Source: Geothrix edaphica (GTDB lineage Bacteria > Acidobacteriota > Holophagae > Holophagales > Holophagaceae). Taken from it: a DNA stretch of 64,000 nt. The stretch is from assembly GCF_030268045.1 (NCBI RefSeq), contig NZ_BSDC01000001.1, positions 248,001-312,000 on the forward strand, given 5' to 3'. Under the pieces are notes generated by a model. It ran no database searches. It worked only from the letters and a program-made list of their open reading frames with translations, and was not told where the DNA came from. How positions within the stretch are numbered: the stretch's first letter is position 1; each line of letters starts with the position of its first letter. A program made the position numbers and the translations under genes. This document shows positions 8,125 to 21,325 of the stretch, one piece after another.

Positions 8125-9855
8125 TCAGAAATCCCAGAAGGCGTCGATTTCCTCGTTCGTGAAGTCCCACACGGCCTGGTGGGGCGTGACGGGATCCGAG
8201 CTGAAGAACTCCGGCAGGCGGTCATCGGCGCTGGTCAGGCCGGCCGCCAGGTTGAAGGCCCGCTCGAGCTTCAGGACCGTCTTGCCCAGGCCCGTCACGT
8301 CCTCGCCTGTGAGCTTTGCGCCGAACCGGGCGTTGATCATGGCGATCAGCGCCGGCAGGCACTCGGGAATGTCCAGGGCCGGGAAGGCGATGAAGATGCA
8401 CATGCCCGTGGAATCGATGGCGGCCGTGGCGATCTGCAGGTTCCGGGAGAGCTCGACCTGGCCCTCCTTCTTCAGCGGATCCACCTGGCCGCCCACGTTG
8501 AGGATGTTGGTGGCGATGGTGTAGCCCGCGGTGTGGTCCGCGCCCATGGGGCTGGTGCAGTAGGTGATGCCGATGCCCTTGACCGAGCGGGGGTCGTAGG
8601 CCGGGATGGCCTGGTTCTTCACCACGGGCACCCGGGTGACGCCGTAGGTGCGGCCCACGGCGCCTGCGCCCGAGCCGATCACCCGGCCCAGGGCGGTGCC
8701 CTTGCCGATCTCCTCGCGCAGGATGCGGACCACTTCCTTCCCGTCGCCCCAGGGGAGGAGGCCCGCTTCCATGGCCACGCCGAAGGCCACGGCGGTCTCG
8801 ATGGAGTCGATGCCGAGGTCATCCATGAGGTTGTCCGCCAGGGCGATGTCGTCCAGCTCGGCGATGAGACAGTTGGCGCCCAGGCCCCAGATGGTCTCGT
8901 ACTCGAAGCCGGAGGTCAGGTACTGGCCCTCCTTGTCGTGGTAGACCTGCGAGCACTGGATGACGCAGCCCGCGTGGCAGCCGTGCCGGGGCTTGCCCCC
9001 GCGGGCCACGATGGTGTCGTGCATGGTCTCGCCGCAGATCTGCTCGTGGCCGTCGAACTGGCCGTGCGTGAAGTTCCGGGTCGGCAGGCCGCCCGCCTCG
9101 TGGAGGATGTTGACCAGCACGTTCGTGCCGTAGGTGGGGAGGCCCTGGCCGCTCACGGGGTGGTCCATGAGGGCCTTCGTGAACACGCGGGAGGCGCGCT
9201 TGAAGGCCTCGGGATCCGCGAGCTGGATGCCGGGGGCGCCCTCGTCATCAATGGCGATGAACTTGATCCGCTTGGAGCCCATGACGGCGCCAAGGCCGCC
9301 GCGGCCGTGGCTGCGGATCTTGCCCGAGGGATCCTTCACCGAGATGTTCGCGGACGTGAGCTTCATCTCGCCGGCGGGGCCGATGGCGATCACGCCGGTC
9401 TTCTTGCCGAGGAGCGCCTGGAGGGCGTCGATGACGGCGAAGTTCCCCAGGCCCAGGAGCCCGCGCTCCTCTTCGATGGTGACGCCGTCCTTGCCGACCT
9501 TGAGGGCGTACCAGCCCTCGCCTTTGGGCATGCCCTCGACGATCAGGGCCTTGATGCCCAGGCGCGCGAACATCTGGGCCGCCGTGCCGCCGACGTTGCT
9601 CTCCTTGATGCCCCCCGTCAGCGGGCTCTTGGCGCCGGCGGACAGGCGACCCGAGTTGGACGCCGCCGTGCCCGAGAGCAGCCCGGGCGCGAACACCAGC
9701 TTGTTGTTGGGCCCGAGGGCGTGGCAGGTGGGCGGGACCTCCTTCGCCACGATGGTCGACGTGAGGGCCCGGCCGCCGAGACCGGCCCACTCGGCGGGCA
9801 CCTCCTCGACCGCGGTGGTCAGGTCGGTCATGTTCACGCGCAGGATCTTGTCCAT
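8125..9855 (-). CDS. aor: Tungsten-type aldehyde:ferredoxin oxidoreductase family protein
   Basis: A 576-residue enzyme expected to oxidise aldehydes to acids, or the reverse, with ferredoxin, using a bis-pyranopterin tungsten centre and a 4Fe-4S cluster. Cluster ligands are visible as C293, C297 and C301 (CHAGCVIQC) and C486 (DSTGMC). Family blocks include GLGGRALTS near the N-terminus, GRLSAGAKSPLTGG and GRGGLGAVMGSKRIK. The length is slightly under the usual 600 residues. ATG 9855 is supported by the family N-terminus MDKILRVNM. The promoter region carries a sigma-54 type site and the divergent gene is a sigma-54 activator, so expression is probably inducible. The aldehyde substrate is unknown. 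Confidence 0.93.
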   Translation of the reverse strand: MDKILRVNMTDLTTAVEEVPAEWAGLGGRALTSTIVAKEVPPTCHALGPNNKLVFAPGLLSGTAASNSGRLSAGAKSPLTGGIKESNVGGTAAQMFARLGIKALIVEGMPKGEGWYALKVGKDGVTIEEERGLLGLGNFAVIDALQALLGKKTGVIAIGPAGEMKLTSANISVKDPSGKIRSHGRGGLGAVMGSKRIKFIAIDDEGAPGIQLADPEAFKRASRVFTKALMDHPVSGQGLPTYGTNVLVNILHEAGGLPTRNFTHGQFDGHEQICGETMHDTIVARGGKPRHGCHAGCVIQCSQVYHDKEGQYLTSGFEYETIWGLGANCLIAELDDIALADNLMDDLGIDSIETAVAFGVAMEAGLLPWGDGKEVVRILREEIGKGTALGRVIGSGAGAVGRTYGVTRVPVVKNQAIPAYDPRSVKGIGITYCTSPMGADHTAGYTIATNILNVGGQVDPLKKEGQVELSRNLQIATAAIDSTGMCIFIAFPALDIPECLPALIAMINARFGAKLTGEDVTGLGKTVLKLERAFNLAAGLTSADDRLPEFFSSDPVTPHQAVWDFTNEEIDAFWDF

Positions 9856-15737: not shown

Positions 15738-16478
15738 TCAGCGCTTCCCCACCTGGATGCACTCTTTCGTCTTGGGGGTCATGGCCCGGCTGACGGTCAG
15801 CTCCACCTTGGGGGCGACCATCACCTTGATCCGCCCCACGGAGGCCGGGCGGATCCCCTTGACCATCCCGGGGCGCAGCAGCAGGTGGCGCTGAATGCGG
15901 ACCATGCCGTCCTCCGGGAAGGTCTGCTCCACCTCCGACAAGGCGGCCCAGCGCGTCAGATAGCGGTTCTGGCCGCGGCAGGCCCAGACCTGGTTCTGCT
16001 CCAGTTCGAAGTGCGTGACCAGCTCCAGCTCCATGTAGATCTCCCCGTCGCCGGCCCGGATGGGGAAGCGGATCGGGGGCGGCACGAGGGCCTTCAGTTC
16101 GGTCGGGCTCAGGGGCCGGATCAGCCGATCCCGCAGGCGCTGCAGGCATTTCGCCAGCCGGTCCTCGAACACCGGTTTCAGCAGGTAGTCCACGGCCGCG
16201 AGCTCGAACGCGCGCACCGCATAGGTGGAGTAGGCCGTCACGAAGACCACGGGCGGGGTGTCCGGGGCCTCCGCCAGCACCTCCAGACCGCTGAGGCCGG
16301 GCATCTGGATGTCCAGGAAGATGACATCCGCTTCGTGGGGTTCCTTCAGCCACTGGAGCAGGGCGACGCCGTCACCGAGCTCCGCCACGACGGTGCAGCC
16401 GGCCTCCAGGAGCAGCCGCGAGAGCCGCTCCCGGGCCAGGGGCTCGTCATCAACTACAAGGGCCTTCAGGGACTTCAT
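15738..16478 (-). CDS. LytTR-type two-component response regulator
   Basis: A 246-residue regulator with a receiver domain (about 5-120; acidic pair DDE at 10-12, phosphoacceptor D56 in FLDIQMPG, VTAYSTYAVRAFE, K of LLKPV) and a LytTR DNA-binding domain (about 145-240, with FELEQNQVWACRGQNRYLT and VRIQRHLLLRPGMVKGI). LytTR proteins bind paired 9-bp direct repeats. It overlaps the 3' end of the kinase gene by 29 bases, forming one operon. In many Gram-positives such pairs sense peptides; the peptide gene just upstream makes that attractive here. Candidate target repeats are listed at 17812-17846 and 21063-21096. Confidence 0.93.
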   Translation of the reverse strand: MKSLKALVVDDEPLARERLSRLLLEAGCTVVAELGDGVALLQWLKEPHEADVIFLDIQMPGLSGLEVLAEAPDTPPVVFVTAYSTYAVRAFELAAVDYLLKPVFEDRLAKCLQRLRDRLIRPLSPTELKALVPPPIRFPIRAGDGEIYMELELVTHFELEQNQVWACRGQNRYLTRWAALSEVEQTFPEDGMVRIQRHLLLRPGMVKGIRPASVGRIKVMVAPKVELTVSRAMTPKTKECIQVGKR

Positions 16479-17532
16479 GGGGGAATTCTACTTGGATCGC
16501 CTCGAATCGAATGCAGGCAAGGGTGCCCGTGCCCGAGGGCCCGATGGACAGCCGGGCGCCATTGCCGAAGTGCAGGGCCAACCGGGAGCGCAGGTTCTTG
16601 ACGCCGATGCCGTTCCCGCTCCCGTGGACCGGGAAGGGCTGCCCCGAATTCCAGACCTCCAGGAGGATGGCCCCCTCCTGGGCCCGGGCCCGGAGCACCA
16701 GGTCGCCTCCGGGGATGCTGGGCGCGATGCCGTGCTTGATGGCGTTTTCCACCAGGGGCTGGAGGAGGAGTGGGGGCAGCTCGATGGAGTCCAGCCCTTC
16801 GTCCCACTCCCAGACGACCCGGAGCCGGCTGCCCAGCCGGATGGCTTCCAGGGCCAGGAAGTCGGCGATGATCTTCCGTTCTTCCCGCAGGGGCAGGCGC
16901 ACGTGCTCCGACGCGACGAGGATGCGCCGGAGCAGGTCGGAGAGATGCCGGATGGCGCCCTCGGCGGCCTTGGGATCCTTGTGCACCAGCTCCGCCAGGC
17001 CGTTCAGGGCGTTGAACAGCACATGCGGGTGGATCTGGCTCTGGAGCAGCCGGTTCTTGGCGATCTGGGCTTCGGCCTGGGAAGCCTCCCGGAGCTCCTC
17101 CGAGCGGGCCCGCGCCGCGACAAGTCCCCCGACGACCATCATGGCTGGCCCCACGAGTGAGGTGTAGAGCTGCACGAGCTTCCGCAGGTTGAATTTGACG
17201 TTTCCTTTGGCAAGAAACCATCCATCGATAATGGGGAGAAGAACCGCAACCAGCTCACAGGCAACCACTGAGAGCACGAACCCGAGAATGAAGTTCCAAG
17301 GAGTAGAAAGCCGTCGAGGCAGGACCCAGGGCAGAGGGGCCAGGAAGGCGAAAGCTCCAATGTGCGTGAGCGGAGAGGAGAAGGCACTGGCCAGCCACCA
17401 TCCGGAGCCGATCCGATGAGACGTCCAATGATCGTACAGAAGGAGGATGACCCACAGGGAATAGCAGGCTCCGATGGCCCGCCAGTTTTTGGCCAGCGGA
17501 AAGGCTGAAACCCATGGGTTCGCGGGGCCCAT
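16450..17532 (-). CDS. LytS/AlgZ-type membrane histidine kinase
   Basis: A 360-residue kinase with four or five membrane helices in the first 140 residues and a very short cytoplasmic linker. The kinase core has the family block SQIHPHVLFNALNGL (phospho-acceptor His about 170), LLLQPLVENAIKHGI (N box) and GNGIGVKNLRSRL (G box). No periplasmic sensor domain is seen, so the signal is probably sensed in the membrane. The frame is open to 17628 and an ATG there would overlap the peptide gene; 17532 was chosen because AGGGGG precedes it and the protein then starts just before its first helix. The start lies 40 bases after the peptide stop with no terminator between. Confidence 0.9.
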   Translation of the reverse strand: MGPANPWVSAFPLAKNWRAIGACYSLWVILLLYDHWTSHRIGSGWWLASAFSSPLTHIGAFAFLAPLPWVLPRRLSTPWNFILGFVLSVVACELVAVLLPIIDGWFLAKGNVKFNLRKLVQLYTSLVGPAMMVVGGLVAARARSEELREASQAEAQIAKNRLLQSQIHPHVLFNALNGLAELVHKDPKAAEGAIRHLSDLLRRILVASEHVRLPLREERKIIADFLALEAIRLGSRLRVVWEWDEGLDSIELPPLLLQPLVENAIKHGIAPSIPGGDLVLRARAQEGAILLEVWNSGQPFPVHGSGNGIGVKNLRSRLALHFGNGARLSIGPSGTGTLACIRFEAIQVEFPHEVPEGPCS

Positions 17533-17572
17533 GCCCCCTTCTTCCCCCCACTCGGCGAACCCATGTCGGTTG

Positions 17573-17737
17573 TCAATCAATGGTGGTGAGTGAGGTGGTG
17601 AGGGTGATCGGCCGCTGGCCCCGCTCATGCTTCGGCCCCTGGCCTTCCGTGAAGGGCGCTGTGGGTCGGCTGGCAGCTTCGCTCATCTGGCTCGAGCGCT
17701 GGATGGATTCTTTGCGGAAGGAGAGGCTGGTGTTCAC
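17573..17737 (-). CDS. Candidate RiPP precursor peptide (class I lanthipeptide-like leader, cysteine-free core)
   Basis: A 54-residue peptide read from a GTG at 17737, with GGGAG six bases upstream. The N-terminus NTSLSFRKESIQ resembles the LxLxKETI leader motif of class I lanthipeptide precursors. The middle is polar with Pro, Gly and Arg (TEGQGPKHERGQRP), and the last 11 residues are ITLTTSLTTID, with five Thr and one Ser and no Cys anywhere. The gene stands divergent to a full-length LanB gene, whose substrates are Ser/Thr residues of such peptides. It lies directly upstream of a LytS-type kinase on the same strand, so it could encode the modified peptide, its signal form, or both. Small size and novelty keep confidence moderate. 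Confidence 0.6.
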   Translation of the reverse strand: MNTSLSFRKESIQRSSQMSEAASRPTAPFTEGQGPKHERGQRPITLTTSLTTID

Positions 17738-17811
17738 GGGAGCTCCCAGGTGGCGCCGCAGGGCGCGACCTTGTTTTTGAACCCTCCCGAGACGGGAACC
17801 AACGTCTTTCC

Positions 17812-17846
17812 ATGAACGGTATGTAACCACACCTCCAACCGTTGGG
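17812..17846. promoter_or_regulatory. Candidate LytTR operator between peptide and lanB genes
   Basis: On the minus strand ACCGTTCAT (17812-17820) fits the LytTR half-site pattern [TA][AC][CA]GTTN[AG][TG] fully, and ACGGTTGGA (17834-17842) fits seven of nine positions, with starts 22 bases apart. On the plus strand ACCGTTGGG (17838-17846) also fits fully. The rest of 17738-17936 holds divergent promoters and leaders only. Confidence 0.4.
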
Positions 17847-17936
17847 ACCCCTGCATGCCACCATTCGGAGATTCCGGGTGGTGCGCGGTCGGGAGATGAT
17901 TCCCTGGAGCGGTCTCCCAACGAAGGCATCCGGCCC

Positions 17937-20900
17937 ATGTCGCACCAGCCCACCTGTCGAACCGCTGACTTTTTTGTGTTACGTAGCCCGAGCCTCCCGC
18001 TGGATTCGCTGGATCCCCGGAATCCTCCGGAACGGGACCGGGAGGCCCTGCGCGGGATCCTCCGCGAGCTGGCCGGACGCGACGCCGTGCGGGAGGCCCT
18101 GGCGCTGGCCTCGCCGGACCTCGCCGCGCGGCTGGACGCGTGGCGGTCGGGAGCCCTGGAGCCCCCGGCGGCCCGCGGCGTCGAGCGGGCCCTGCTGAAG
18201 TACCTCGGCCGCATGAGCCGCCGCGCGACGCCCTTCGGCCTGTTCGCGGGCGTGTCGACGGGAACCTGGGGCGCCACGAGCCAGCTCGCCGTGGCCTCCT
18301 GGCCGGAGTGCCGCAAGGCCGTGCGTCTGGATTGGGGCGTCCTGGAGACCCTGGTGGCACGCCTGGAGCAGGCGCCGGAGGTGCGGTCCCGGACGGTGTA
18401 CCGCCCCAACTCCAGCCTCTACGGATGCGGGGGCTGGTACCGGTACCTGGAGCACCGGGAGCAGCCCGGAACGGGGCGGACCTACCACCTGGAGGCGGTG
18501 GAGGCCACGCCCCACCTGGACTTCGCGCTTCAGGAGGCCCGGGATGGCGTGCGCCTGGAGGACCTCGCGGAGCGGCTGGCCGGTCACCTGGAGGTGCCGC
18601 CGGCGGAGGCGCGGGCCTTCCTGGAGCAGCTCGTGCAGGCCCAGGTCCTCTGCGGGGATCTGCTGCCTCCGCTGAGCAGCCGGGATCCCCTGGGCCACGT
18701 GGTCTCCGCCCTGCGGGCCGAGTCGGCCACGGCCCACCACGCGGAGCCCCTGGCGGCCCTGGGCCTGGGCCTGAAGCGCCTCCAGGAGGCCCCGGCCGGT
18801 TCGCACCCCCGAGGCGATCCGGGCCTGGCGGCCGCCCTGCTCGATCTGGGGATCCCCGCGGAAACCCGGGATGTCCTCCAGGTGGACCTCTTCCGTCCCG
18901 CCCCGGACCTGTCCCTGTCCCCCGGAGTGCGGCAGGCCCTCGAGGAGGGCGCCGAGACGCTCCGCCGCCTGACGCCGGCCCCGGCCGAGGGGGCGCTGGA
19001 GCGGTTCCGGGCGGCCTTCACCGCGCGGTACGACGCCCGCTGGATGCCGCTGCTGGAGGTCCTGGACGAGGAGCGCGGGATCGGCTTCGACGGGGCGCCC
19101 GTCTATGACTCGCCACTGCTGGAGGGCCTGTCGTTCCAGAGCCCGCCCGCCCCGGCCCCGCTGTCCCGCCGGGACCGGTACCTGCTGGCGCAGCTGCCCC
19201 GCTGGCAGGGGACCCAGGCCTGGGAGCTGGAGGAGGCGGACCTGGCCGCCCTCGCCCACCCGGATCCCCAGCCCTTCCCGCCCTCCTTCGCCGCGCTGGC
19301 CACCCTGGCGGCGGCCAGTCCGGCCGCCCTGGACCGGGGCGAGTTCCAGTTCTGGATGGAGCACCACTCGGGCCCCACGGCCGCCCGCTGGCTGGGGAGG
19401 TTCGCCTCCGGGGATCCCGAGCTGGAGGAGGCCCTCCAGCGGCACCTGCGGAAGGAGGAGGCCGGGCGCCCCGAGGTGGTGTTCGCCGAGGTGGTCCATG
19501 TGCCTGAGGGCCGCATGGGCAACGTCCTGGCCCGGCCTTCGCTGCGGGACTACGAGATCCCCTTCCTGGCCCCGTCCGGCGTCGCCGCCGGGGCGGCCAT
19601 CCTCCCTGCGGACCTCCAGGTGGCCGTGCGCGGGGAGCGCGTGGTGCTGGCCTCGACGCGGCTGGGGCGGGAGGTCGTGCCCCGCCTCTCCTCGGCCCAC
19701 AACTTCGCCCGCGGGCCGGTGGTCTACCGGTTCCTGGCCCGCCTGCAGGACCAGGATGGGCGTCCGGGCGGGTGGTCCTGGGGCGCCCTGGCGGAACAGC
19801 CCTTCCTGCCCCGGGTCACGCGCGGGCGCCACGTCCTCAGCAAGGCCCGCTGGCGGGTGGAGGCCCGGGAGCTGAAGGAGGCCGCGGCAGGCCCGGGCGA
19901 GGGTGCCTGGGGCGCGTTCCAGGCGCTGCGGGAGCGCCGGGAGCTGCCCCGGTTCGTCGTGCTCACGGAGGCCGACAACAGCCTGCTGGTGGACCTGGAC
20001 CAGGCCCTCTGGGTGGAGACGCTGCACCACCTCGTGGCGAACCGTCCGGGCTTCATCCTCACGGAGTGCTTCCCCGCTCCCGGCGAGGCCCTGGTCACCG
20101 CGCCGGAGGGGCGGTTCGCCCATGAGCTGGTCATCCCCTTCGAGGCGACCGCCCCGCCCAGGCCCCAGGCCATCGCCCTCCCGTCGGCGCTCCCCGCGTC
20201 CGAAGTCCGGACCTATCCCCCGGGGTCGGAATGGCTCTACCTCAAGCTCTACGGCGGGCCGGCCAGCGCGGACCGGCTCCTCACGGAGCTGGAGCCACTG
20301 CTCCGGATGACCGGGGCGCAGGGGCTTTGGGACCGCTGGCACTTCATCCGGTACCGCGATCCAGACCCGCACCTGCGCCTCCGCTTCCACGGCGTGCCCC
20401 TCCGGCTCCTCGCGGAGCTGCTGCCCCTGCTCCACAAGTATCTGGAAGAGCGCCGGGCCCAGGGGCTCCTCCGGACCTGGCAGGTGGACACCTTCGAACC
20501 CGAGTGGGAGCGCTACGGCGGCGCCCTCGGCTTCTCCCTGGCGGAGGCCTGGTTCTGGGCGGACAGCCAGCAGGTCCTGGCGCACCTGGCCGCGGGCATG
20601 ACGCTGGAGCAGCGCTGGCGGACGGGGCTGCACGAGGTGGACGCCATCTGGGCGGCCCTGGGCCTGGACCGTTCAGCACGGAAGGCGCTGGCCCAGGCCA
20701 CCCGGGAGCGTCTCCGGAAGGAATTCGGCGACACCGGGGCGGAAAGCGCCCAGCTGGGCGTGCGGTTCCGGGGCCTTCGGAGGGAGCTCGAGGCGGGGTT
20801 CCCCGCGAGCACCGGGGCCTCCGGGGCCCAGCACCTTCGCGGCCTGGACCGGATCCGGGCCGCCTCCGCAGAGGGGCTGCTGCAGGAGAGCCTGACCCGC

Positions 20901-21050
20901 ATCGCGGGGAGCCTGGCGCACATGCACCTCAACCGCCTGTTCCGGAACCACCCCCGGGAACAGGAATGGGTGCTCATGGAGTTCCTGACCCGCCTCTACG
21001 ACTCCCACCTCGCGCGGTTTCCGGAGGGCTCCGCCGGATCGGGAGGGTAG
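17937..21050 (+). CDS. lanB: Full-length class I lantibiotic dehydratase (LanB)
   Basis: A 1037-residue tRNA-Glu-dependent dehydratase that glutamylates Ser/Thr side chains and eliminates glutamate to leave dehydroalanine or dehydrobutyrine. The N-terminal domain (to about 740) opens with ADFFVLRSPSLPLDSLD and has MSRRATPFGLFAGVSTG near 92-108. The C-terminal elimination (thiopeptide-type) domain begins about 765 with WLYLKLYGG, has FIRYRDPDPHLRLRFHG holding the catalytic-type arginines, and ends near HMHLNRLFRNHP. Both halves are therefore in one chain, as in NisB. No LanC cyclase, exporter or leader protease lies in the window. The start ATG 17937 fits the family N-terminus, though the ribosome site is weak. 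Confidence 0.93.
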   Translation: MSHQPTCRTADFFVLRSPSLPLDSLDPRNPPERDREALRGILRELAGRDAVREALALASPDLAARLDAWRSGALEPPAARGVERALLKYLGRMSRRATPFGLFAGVSTGTWGATSQLAVASWPECRKAVRLDWGVLETLVARLEQAPEVRSRTVYRPNSSLYGCGGWYRYLEHREQPGTGRTYHLEAVEATPHLDFALQEARDGVRLEDLAERLAGHLEVPPAEARAFLEQLVQAQVLCGDLLPPLSSRDPLGHVVSALRAESATAHHAEPLAALGLGLKRLQEAPAGSHPRGDPGLAAALLDLGIPAETRDVLQVDLFRPAPDLSLSPGVRQALEEGAETLRRLTPAPAEGALERFRAAFTARYDARWMPLLEVLDEERGIGFDGAPVYDSPLLEGLSFQSPPAPAPLSRRDRYLLAQLPRWQGTQAWELEEADLAALAHPDPQPFPPSFAALATLAAASPAALDRGEFQFWMEHHSGPTAARWLGRFASGDPELEEALQRHLRKEEAGRPEVVFAEVVHVPEGRMGNVLARPSLRDYEIPFLAPSGVAAGAAILPADLQVAVRGERVVLASTRLGREVVPRLSSAHNFARGPVVYRFLARLQDQDGRPGGWSWGALAEQPFLPRVTRGRHVLSKARWRVEARELKEAAAGPGEGAWGAFQALRERRELPRFVVLTEADNSLLVDLDQALWVETLHHLVANRPGFILTECFPAPGEALVTAPEGRFAHELVIPFEATAPPRPQAIALPSALPASEVRTYPPGSEWLYLKLYGGPASADRLLTELEPLLRMTGAQGLWDRWHFIRYRDPDPHLRLRFHGVPLRLLAELLPLLHKYLEERRAQGLLRTWQVDTFEPEWERYGGALGFSLAEAWFWADSQQVLAHLAAGMTLEQRWRTGLHEVDAIWAALGLDRSARKALAQATRERLRKEFGDTGAESAQLGVRFRGLRRELEAGFPASTGASGAQHLRGLDRIRAASAEGLLQESLTRIAGSLAHMHLNRLFRNHPREQEWVLMEFLTRLYDSHLARFPEGSAGSGG

Positions 21051-21062
21051 GGGGCCGGGCCT

Positions 21063-21096
21063 ACCGTTCGGCCGGGAAAAGCGACCGTTCGACCGG
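21063..21096 (+). promoter_or_regulatory. Direct repeat matching a LytTR operator, upstream of DUF3606 gene
   Basis: ACCGTTCGGCCGG (21063-21075) and ACCGTTCGACCGG (21084-21096) differ in one base and start 21 bases apart. Their first nine bases fit the LytTR half-site pattern in nine and eight positions. TAGGAT at 21125-21130 may be the -10 element, with no recognisable -35, as expected for an activated promoter. Confidence 0.5.
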
Positions 21097-21148: not shown

Positions 21149-21325
21149 ATGCACGAGAACCTGGAGATCCGGGGAACGGAAAGCCAGGAATGGATCAACG
21201 TCCACGAGCCCTACGAGCTGCGGGACTGGGCCATCTACTTCAGCGTCTCGCGGATGAAGATCGCCGAGGCGGTCATGGCCGTGGGTCCCATGGTCGAGGA
21301 TGTGAAGCGCTACCTCGGGAAGTGA
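21149..21325 (+). CDS. DUF3606 family small protein
   Basis: A 58-residue protein, MHENLEIRGTESQEWINVHE followed by PYELRDWAIYFSVS and VGPMVEDVKRYLGK. The INVHEPYELRDW and VGPMVEDV blocks are typical of DUF3606, a small helical family widespread in proteobacteria and acidobacteria with unknown function, often stress-linked in name only. GGAGG lies four bases before the ATG. It follows lanB by about 100 bases with its own candidate promoter. Confidence 0.8.
   Translation: MHENLEIRGTESQEWINVHEPYELRDWAIYFSVSRMKIAEAVMAVGPMVEDVKRYLGK

Follow-up and report, generated by a model that had tools for sequence, protein, structure and literature searches.

The genome of Geothrix edaphica holds a module of four genes in which an orphan full-length LanB dehydratase is encoded divergently from a cysteine-free precursor peptide, a histidine kinase and a LytTR response regulator (Table 1). 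We consider it probable that this module is a peptide two-component system resembling those of quorum sensing, with the LanB-modified peptide as its signal. The preliminary description of the window (the whole 64,000-nucleotide stretch of DNA that was analysed) stands in part: the precursor-like character of the peptide and its lack of cysteine are borne out, and the best reading moves from an odd lanthipeptide to a signal with its own two-component system because a histidine kinase and a LytTR regulator lie downstream and LytTR boxes lie in the promoter.

Table 1. Features of the module and its surroundings (window coordinates)
Feature	Position	Strand	Details
Response regulator with LytTR DNA-binding domain	15738..16478	-	PF00072, PF04397
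Sensor histidine kinase (PF06580)	16450..17532	-	Four N-terminal membrane-type helices, weak model
Cysteine-free precursor gene (54 aa + stop)	17570..17737	-	Leader LSFRKESIQ, Thr-rich tail ITLTTSLTTID
Divergent lanB/precursor promoter	17807..17872	.	LytTR boxes, placed relative to the precursor start
Full-length LanB dehydratase	17937..21050	+	PF04738 E 2e-158, PF14028 E 2e-55
Tandem LytTR box ACCGTTCGG-N12-ACCGTTCGA	21063..21092	+	Precedes the DUF3606 gene
DUF3606 small protein (58 aa)	21149..21325	+	Probable response-regulator target

The precursor gene and its LanB

On the minus strand, positions 17573-17737 read VNTSLSFRKESIQRSSQMSEAASRPTAPFTEGQGPKHERGQRPITLTTSLTTID and then TGA, the stop codon (17570-17572) lying just beyond the range in which the gene was first described. 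The GTG start and GGGAG site ascribed to it are both found on this strand, the start being preceded by CTGGGAGCTCCC, and at 54 aa, none of them cysteine, the product falls below annotation size, as had been remarked. The start codon is ATG in nearly all orthologues as against GTG in the window, and ACCTGGGAG is kept upstream of the precursor homologues.

A profile search for the precursor gave matches in 30 of the 77 genomes of the family (Holophagaceae/Geothrix) with E values from 1e-7 to 6e-30, including one match in the source genome, which has no second precursor of the same family. A LanB search returned 17 loci, all from Geothrix, Holophagaceae or Acidobacteria, and the precursor occupies the same place in 15 of them, these being all the loci whose contig reaches the site; precursor homologues adjoin LanB in the relatives with contigs extending far enough. 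The preliminary description had likened the peptide to class I (LanB) precursors and had named a frame not conserved in close relatives as one of two findings that would refute this reading; the frame is conserved, and the precursor-like character is supported.

Two alignments were made, one of the precursors of 15 relatives with that of the window and one of 29 precursors. An LxFRKESIQ leader, slightly altered in some, and a C-terminus rich in Thr are present in all 29. The leader hardly varies and the tail is variable, length differences between relatives amount to whole codons, and the last 14 residues contain a mean of 5.2 Ser/Thr, mostly Thr. The consensus of the C-terminal stretch of ∼10-12 residues is about P-[IT]-[ST]-[LIF]-T-T-x-[LF]-T-x. 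The core cysteine characteristic of class I lanthipeptides is absent from every one of the 29 tails, and the 1524 residues of these precursors include a single cysteine, in the leader of locus L049; at an assumed frequency of 0.9% about 14 would be expected, which for related sequences is only a guide. In the genome with this locus (G046) the complete module is present twice, as diverged copies (L049 and L050) that differ in their tails. The precursor has no GG cleavage site.

Of the checks proposed in the preliminary description, the search against lanthipeptide leader models failed to recognize the precursor with any Pfam or NCBIfam model. The comparison of synonymous and nonsynonymous changes gives a pN/pS of 0.45 for the leader, which by this measure is under constraint, and of 0.83 for the tail, a soft figure with distant pairs near saturation. 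The conservation of the adjacent noncoding DNA could suggest a chance open reading frame within a conserved promoter region, but we reject this extremely improbable explanation in view of the strength of the amino acid profile matches (to E 6e-30), the whole-codon indels, the conserved start codon and ribosome-binding-like site, and the pN/pS of the leader. Sequence comparison confirms the small open reading frame as a real gene, above chance.

The LanB gene lies 200 bp from the precursor, and phmmer matches its product to solved LanB-type dehydratases including NisB. Residues aligned with NisB R14, R83, R87, T89, D299 and R464, and with R784, R786, E823 and R826, are kept in 30/30 module LanBs, as is a C-terminal His; numbers were assigned by hand on the phmmer alignment, outside of which the C-terminal His lies, and we take the latter to correspond to NisB H961. 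In NisB these residues have roles in catalysis. The source genome (3.16 Mb, 99% complete) has this one LanB and no second, nor, as noted, a second precursor of the family, so that the other refuting condition of the preliminary description, a cysteine-containing precursor elsewhere for LanB to use, did not overturn the reading within these searches. It also lacks LanC (PF05147) at E<=1 and a C39 peptidase/transporter.

We predict that LanB binds the LxFRKESIQ leader and glutamylates Thr and Ser of the ∼10-12 residue C-terminal stretch, and that subsequent elimination of glutamate would yield a linear, hydrophobic, dehydrobutyrine-containing peptide. In agreement with the preliminary description, no lanthionine would form because the peptide has no cysteine and the genome no LanC. 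The retention of every catalytic residue mapped from NisB makes a linear dehydrobutyrine-rich product, one of the outcomes proposed earlier, likely. The same retention of all elimination-domain residues makes a halt at glutamylation unlikely, and with it a product that keeps its glutamyl esters; attack on the dehydro-residues by amines or external thiols, giving a crosslink or adduct, would be in keeping with their reactivity and the lack of cysteine and cyclase, but the module has no further modifying enzyme. LanB-type enzymes can give products free of lanthionine, such as the dehydroalanines of goadsporin (PMC5303826), and still we judge a product without free dehydro-residues to be quite improbable here.

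Kinase, regulator and LytTR boxes

The kinase gene starts 37 bp past the precursor stop codon on the same strand and is followed by the regulator gene. The order of LanB divergent to precursor, kinase and regulator recurs in every locus with enough contig and the flanking genes differ, except that a DUF3606 gene directly follows lanB in eleven loci. Across the family, LanB, kinase and precursor occur in essentially the same set of genomes. A membrane histidine kinase and LytTR regulator thus stand beside the precursor as in LytTR quorum-sensing systems, but the dedicated exporter or membrane processing protease of such systems is absent from the module, as are genes for transport, immunity and proteolytic leader cleavage. 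The AlphaFold model of the kinase is poor (pLDDT 61), too weak for a fold search, and only its helix pattern was used; no large external domain is evident.

The promoter between lanB and the precursor contains LytTR boxes, scored with WMMGTTNRK, which we take to be the LytTR consensus. Relative to the precursor start, a box at -83 faces the precursor and boxes at -109 and -131 face lanB, a central quasi-palindrome pairing with both the -83 box (22 bp) and the -131 box (22 bp). These positions are the same in most of 29 loci. The direct repeats are thus found in the promoter of the module's own operon, although in the window each pair has a degenerate second repeat (the -131 copy reads ACCATTCGG). 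Published LytTR repeats have the same 9-bp length, are spaced by 12-13 bp and lie upstream of the promoter, and the LytTR sites of Streptococcus mutans act by positive feedback (PMC6193735).

Boxes also occur away from this promoter. The window's tandem box upstream of the DUF3606 gene is followed after 32 bp by TAGGAT, and other DUF3606 loci are boxed as well, three with only one exact box. The pattern CCGTTCRGN{13,14}CCGTTCRG has 76 sites in 29 of the 77 genomes compared with 2 for the reversed pattern, and tandem boxes are present in 27/35 kinase-positive genomes versus 2/42 kinase-negative ones, a comparison among related species for which p-values are only a guide. TANNVT follows 30-35 bp downstream in 36 of 70 sites (mean 3.9 and maximum 9 in 500 shuffles), this -10-like site being clear at many distant targets but not at lanB or the precursor. 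Genes under boxes, for which the gene calls are rough at many sites, encode a PAS-HisKA kinase, DUF3892 and GyrI-like proteins, a secreted lipobox protein of ∼650 aa and large secreted proteins without a Pfam match that are RHS-like by eye. Three matches in the source genome (C1:2020, C1:1687806 and C4:171987) have no convincing gene downstream.

In one genome a free-standing 328 aa Lant_dehydr_C protein (PF14028), without the N-terminal half, is encoded under a tandem box (L145 / L091, G070:C1:1058085-1059029). A secreted-looking, cysteine-containing peptide of 67 aa lies 3' of a tandem LytTR box in G020 and G007 (L131, L167). A second kind of boxed promoter (L125, L163, L183, L184, L192) has TGTCTTCAT or TGCGTTCAT near +31 instead of TANNVT, several of its members also having TTG near +9.

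Once cleaved and exported, the modified peptide would reach the membrane kinase with four helices, the product of the next gene downstream, and this kinase would phosphorylate the LytTR regulator. We infer that this regulator binds the tandem ACCGTTCRG boxes, which other LytTR regulators could share. It would switch on precursor, kinase and regulator together with lanB, a putative positive feedback, and may in addition activate distant genes including those for DUF3606 proteins, the PAS histidine kinase, the ∼650 aa lipobox protein and others. Boxes in front of so many non-peptide genes fit a regulator of behaviour better than a production switch, and this, along with a module that carries no gene for a transporter, for immunity or for a protease, in a genome that has no C39 exporter or LanC, makes it unlikely that the product is a secreted antimicrobial or effector, a linear dehydropeptide like a lantibiotic without rings whose two-component system merely controls production upon an unrelated cue. 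That explanation would nonetheless accommodate the three loci that retain the kinase without the peptide and the divergence of tails between species, which is seen in toxins and signals alike, and class I lanthipeptides such as nisin and subtilin often have a two-component system of their own.

The reading as a signal has its own weak points, namely the missing exporter and cleavage motif, the poor kinase model and the loci that hold only the receiver half. The kinase may sense something other than the peptide because three loci keep it without one, and the link between the two may be one of gene order, without sensing.

Phylogeny and losses

In the LanB tree the module enzymes group in a single clade of 30 with support (SH-aLRT 97), counting two members whose contigs are too short to show the module. 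Its distant member L084 (G066) has 48% LanB identity, diverged kinase and regulator genes and a cysteine-free precursor ending in ASITTIWTTPW. The sister of this clade is a Geothrix LanB with an HlyD protein and a C39 exporter encoded beside it (L082, L083), at which no precursor was found. Farther out in the tree, LanBs from the phylum and the family have cysteine-containing precursors nearby, several of the GG type. The module clade falls within the LanBs of apparently canonical lanthipeptide clusters, and with such precursors at the more distant LanBs the cysteine-free state looks derived, and derived once, on a tree that was built quickly and has some long outgroup branches. A canonical lanthipeptide cluster from the same family (L088, 12045-12476) has two tandem cysteine-containing precursors with the leaders LELTKETI and ILIERETI.

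Precursor and lanB are missing together from three loci, in G009, in G010 and at the L152 locus of G020, and these receiver-only loci (L195, L196, L152) keep the kinase, DUF3606 and the LytTR boxes. The precursor/lanB pair is thus lost as a unit, and the receiver can persist alone. In the second locus of G020 (L051), lanB (8366-9019) is cut after ∼218 codons by unrelated sequence, with precursor, kinase and regulator genes still present. These losses and the patchy distribution in the family could be read as the decay of a lanthipeptide system that lost its cysteine and is now disappearing. As a general explanation this is very unlikely, and we reject it: every module locus in a single LanB clade, the distant L084 among them, shares the cysteine-free tail, the leader is constrained and the LanB catalytic residues are intact in 30/30.

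Comparison with known systems

The module shares with class I lanthipeptides (NisA/NisB/NisC) a full-length two-domain LanB next to its precursor with all mapped catalytic residues, a leader resembling LxLxKETI and a neighbouring two-component system like those that serve autoinduction by nisin and subtilin. It differs in having no core cysteine, no LanC and no LanT, LanP or immunity genes, and in a regulator of LytTR type and a kinase of PF06580 type, presumably LytS/BtsS-like and not of the AgrC type. We do not class the peptide as a class I lanthipeptide because two tested defining features, cysteine and LanC, fail.

With LytTR pheromone systems (Agr, Com/Blp, sil) it has in common a compact locus of precursor, modifier, membrane kinase and LytTR regulator. 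In place of AgrB or a C39 exporter, however, the modifier is a tRNA-dependent dehydratase, the locus has no exporter and the host is a Gram-negative member of the Acidobacteriota. The module resembles a LytTR peptide signalling system minus the dedicated exporter, with putative ligand sensing. LytTR regulatory systems (LRS, HdrRM/BrsRM) also have autoregulatory LytTR direct repeats before their own operon, but a membrane inhibitor takes the place of the kinase and there is no modified peptide. The expected end product, with dehydro-residues and no lanthionine rings, is like that of linaridins and goadsporin. Linaridins are made by unrelated dehydratases. Goadsporin is made by split LanB halves together with azole-forming enzymes (PMC5303826). 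Tandem 9-bp repeats spaced by 12-13 bp are a further likeness to the LytTR pheromone systems (PMC6193735). CA_C0082 of Clostridium acetobutylicum similarly ties a lanthipeptide-type enzyme to quorum sensing but is described as a class II LanM-like effector downstream of Agr and not a LanB adjacent to precursor and receptor (PMC10301443).

Parts of this arrangement are therefore already known: cysteine-free precursors occur elsewhere, beside LanM with LanKC and in the cyanotins (PMC7268733), as does LanB-type chemistry without lanthionine, in goadsporin (PMC5303826). In the literature searched, outside which most subscription journals lie, we found neither a cysteine-free LanB peptide combined with its own two-component system nor a paper on Geothrix and lanthipeptides or on LanB lanthipeptides without cysteine. 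We tentatively propose a new class of pheromone, a ring-less dehydrobutyrine peptide made by LanB and sensed by a LytTR two-component system, that may have arisen once in the Holophagaceae from a canonical lanthipeptide pathway that lost its cysteine, cyclase and exporter, with a genome-wide regulon and a receiver half that stands alone in some relatives.

The natural task of the module LanBs is possibly the dehydration of short Thr-rich tails, and rules that demand a cysteine or LanC would miss LanB products of this kind. If the proposal is true, LanB chemistry can yield a signal instead of an antibiotic without forming lanthionine, and the Acidobacteriota would acquire a candidate system for signalling between cells, whose predicted regulon is testable in cultured Geothrix.
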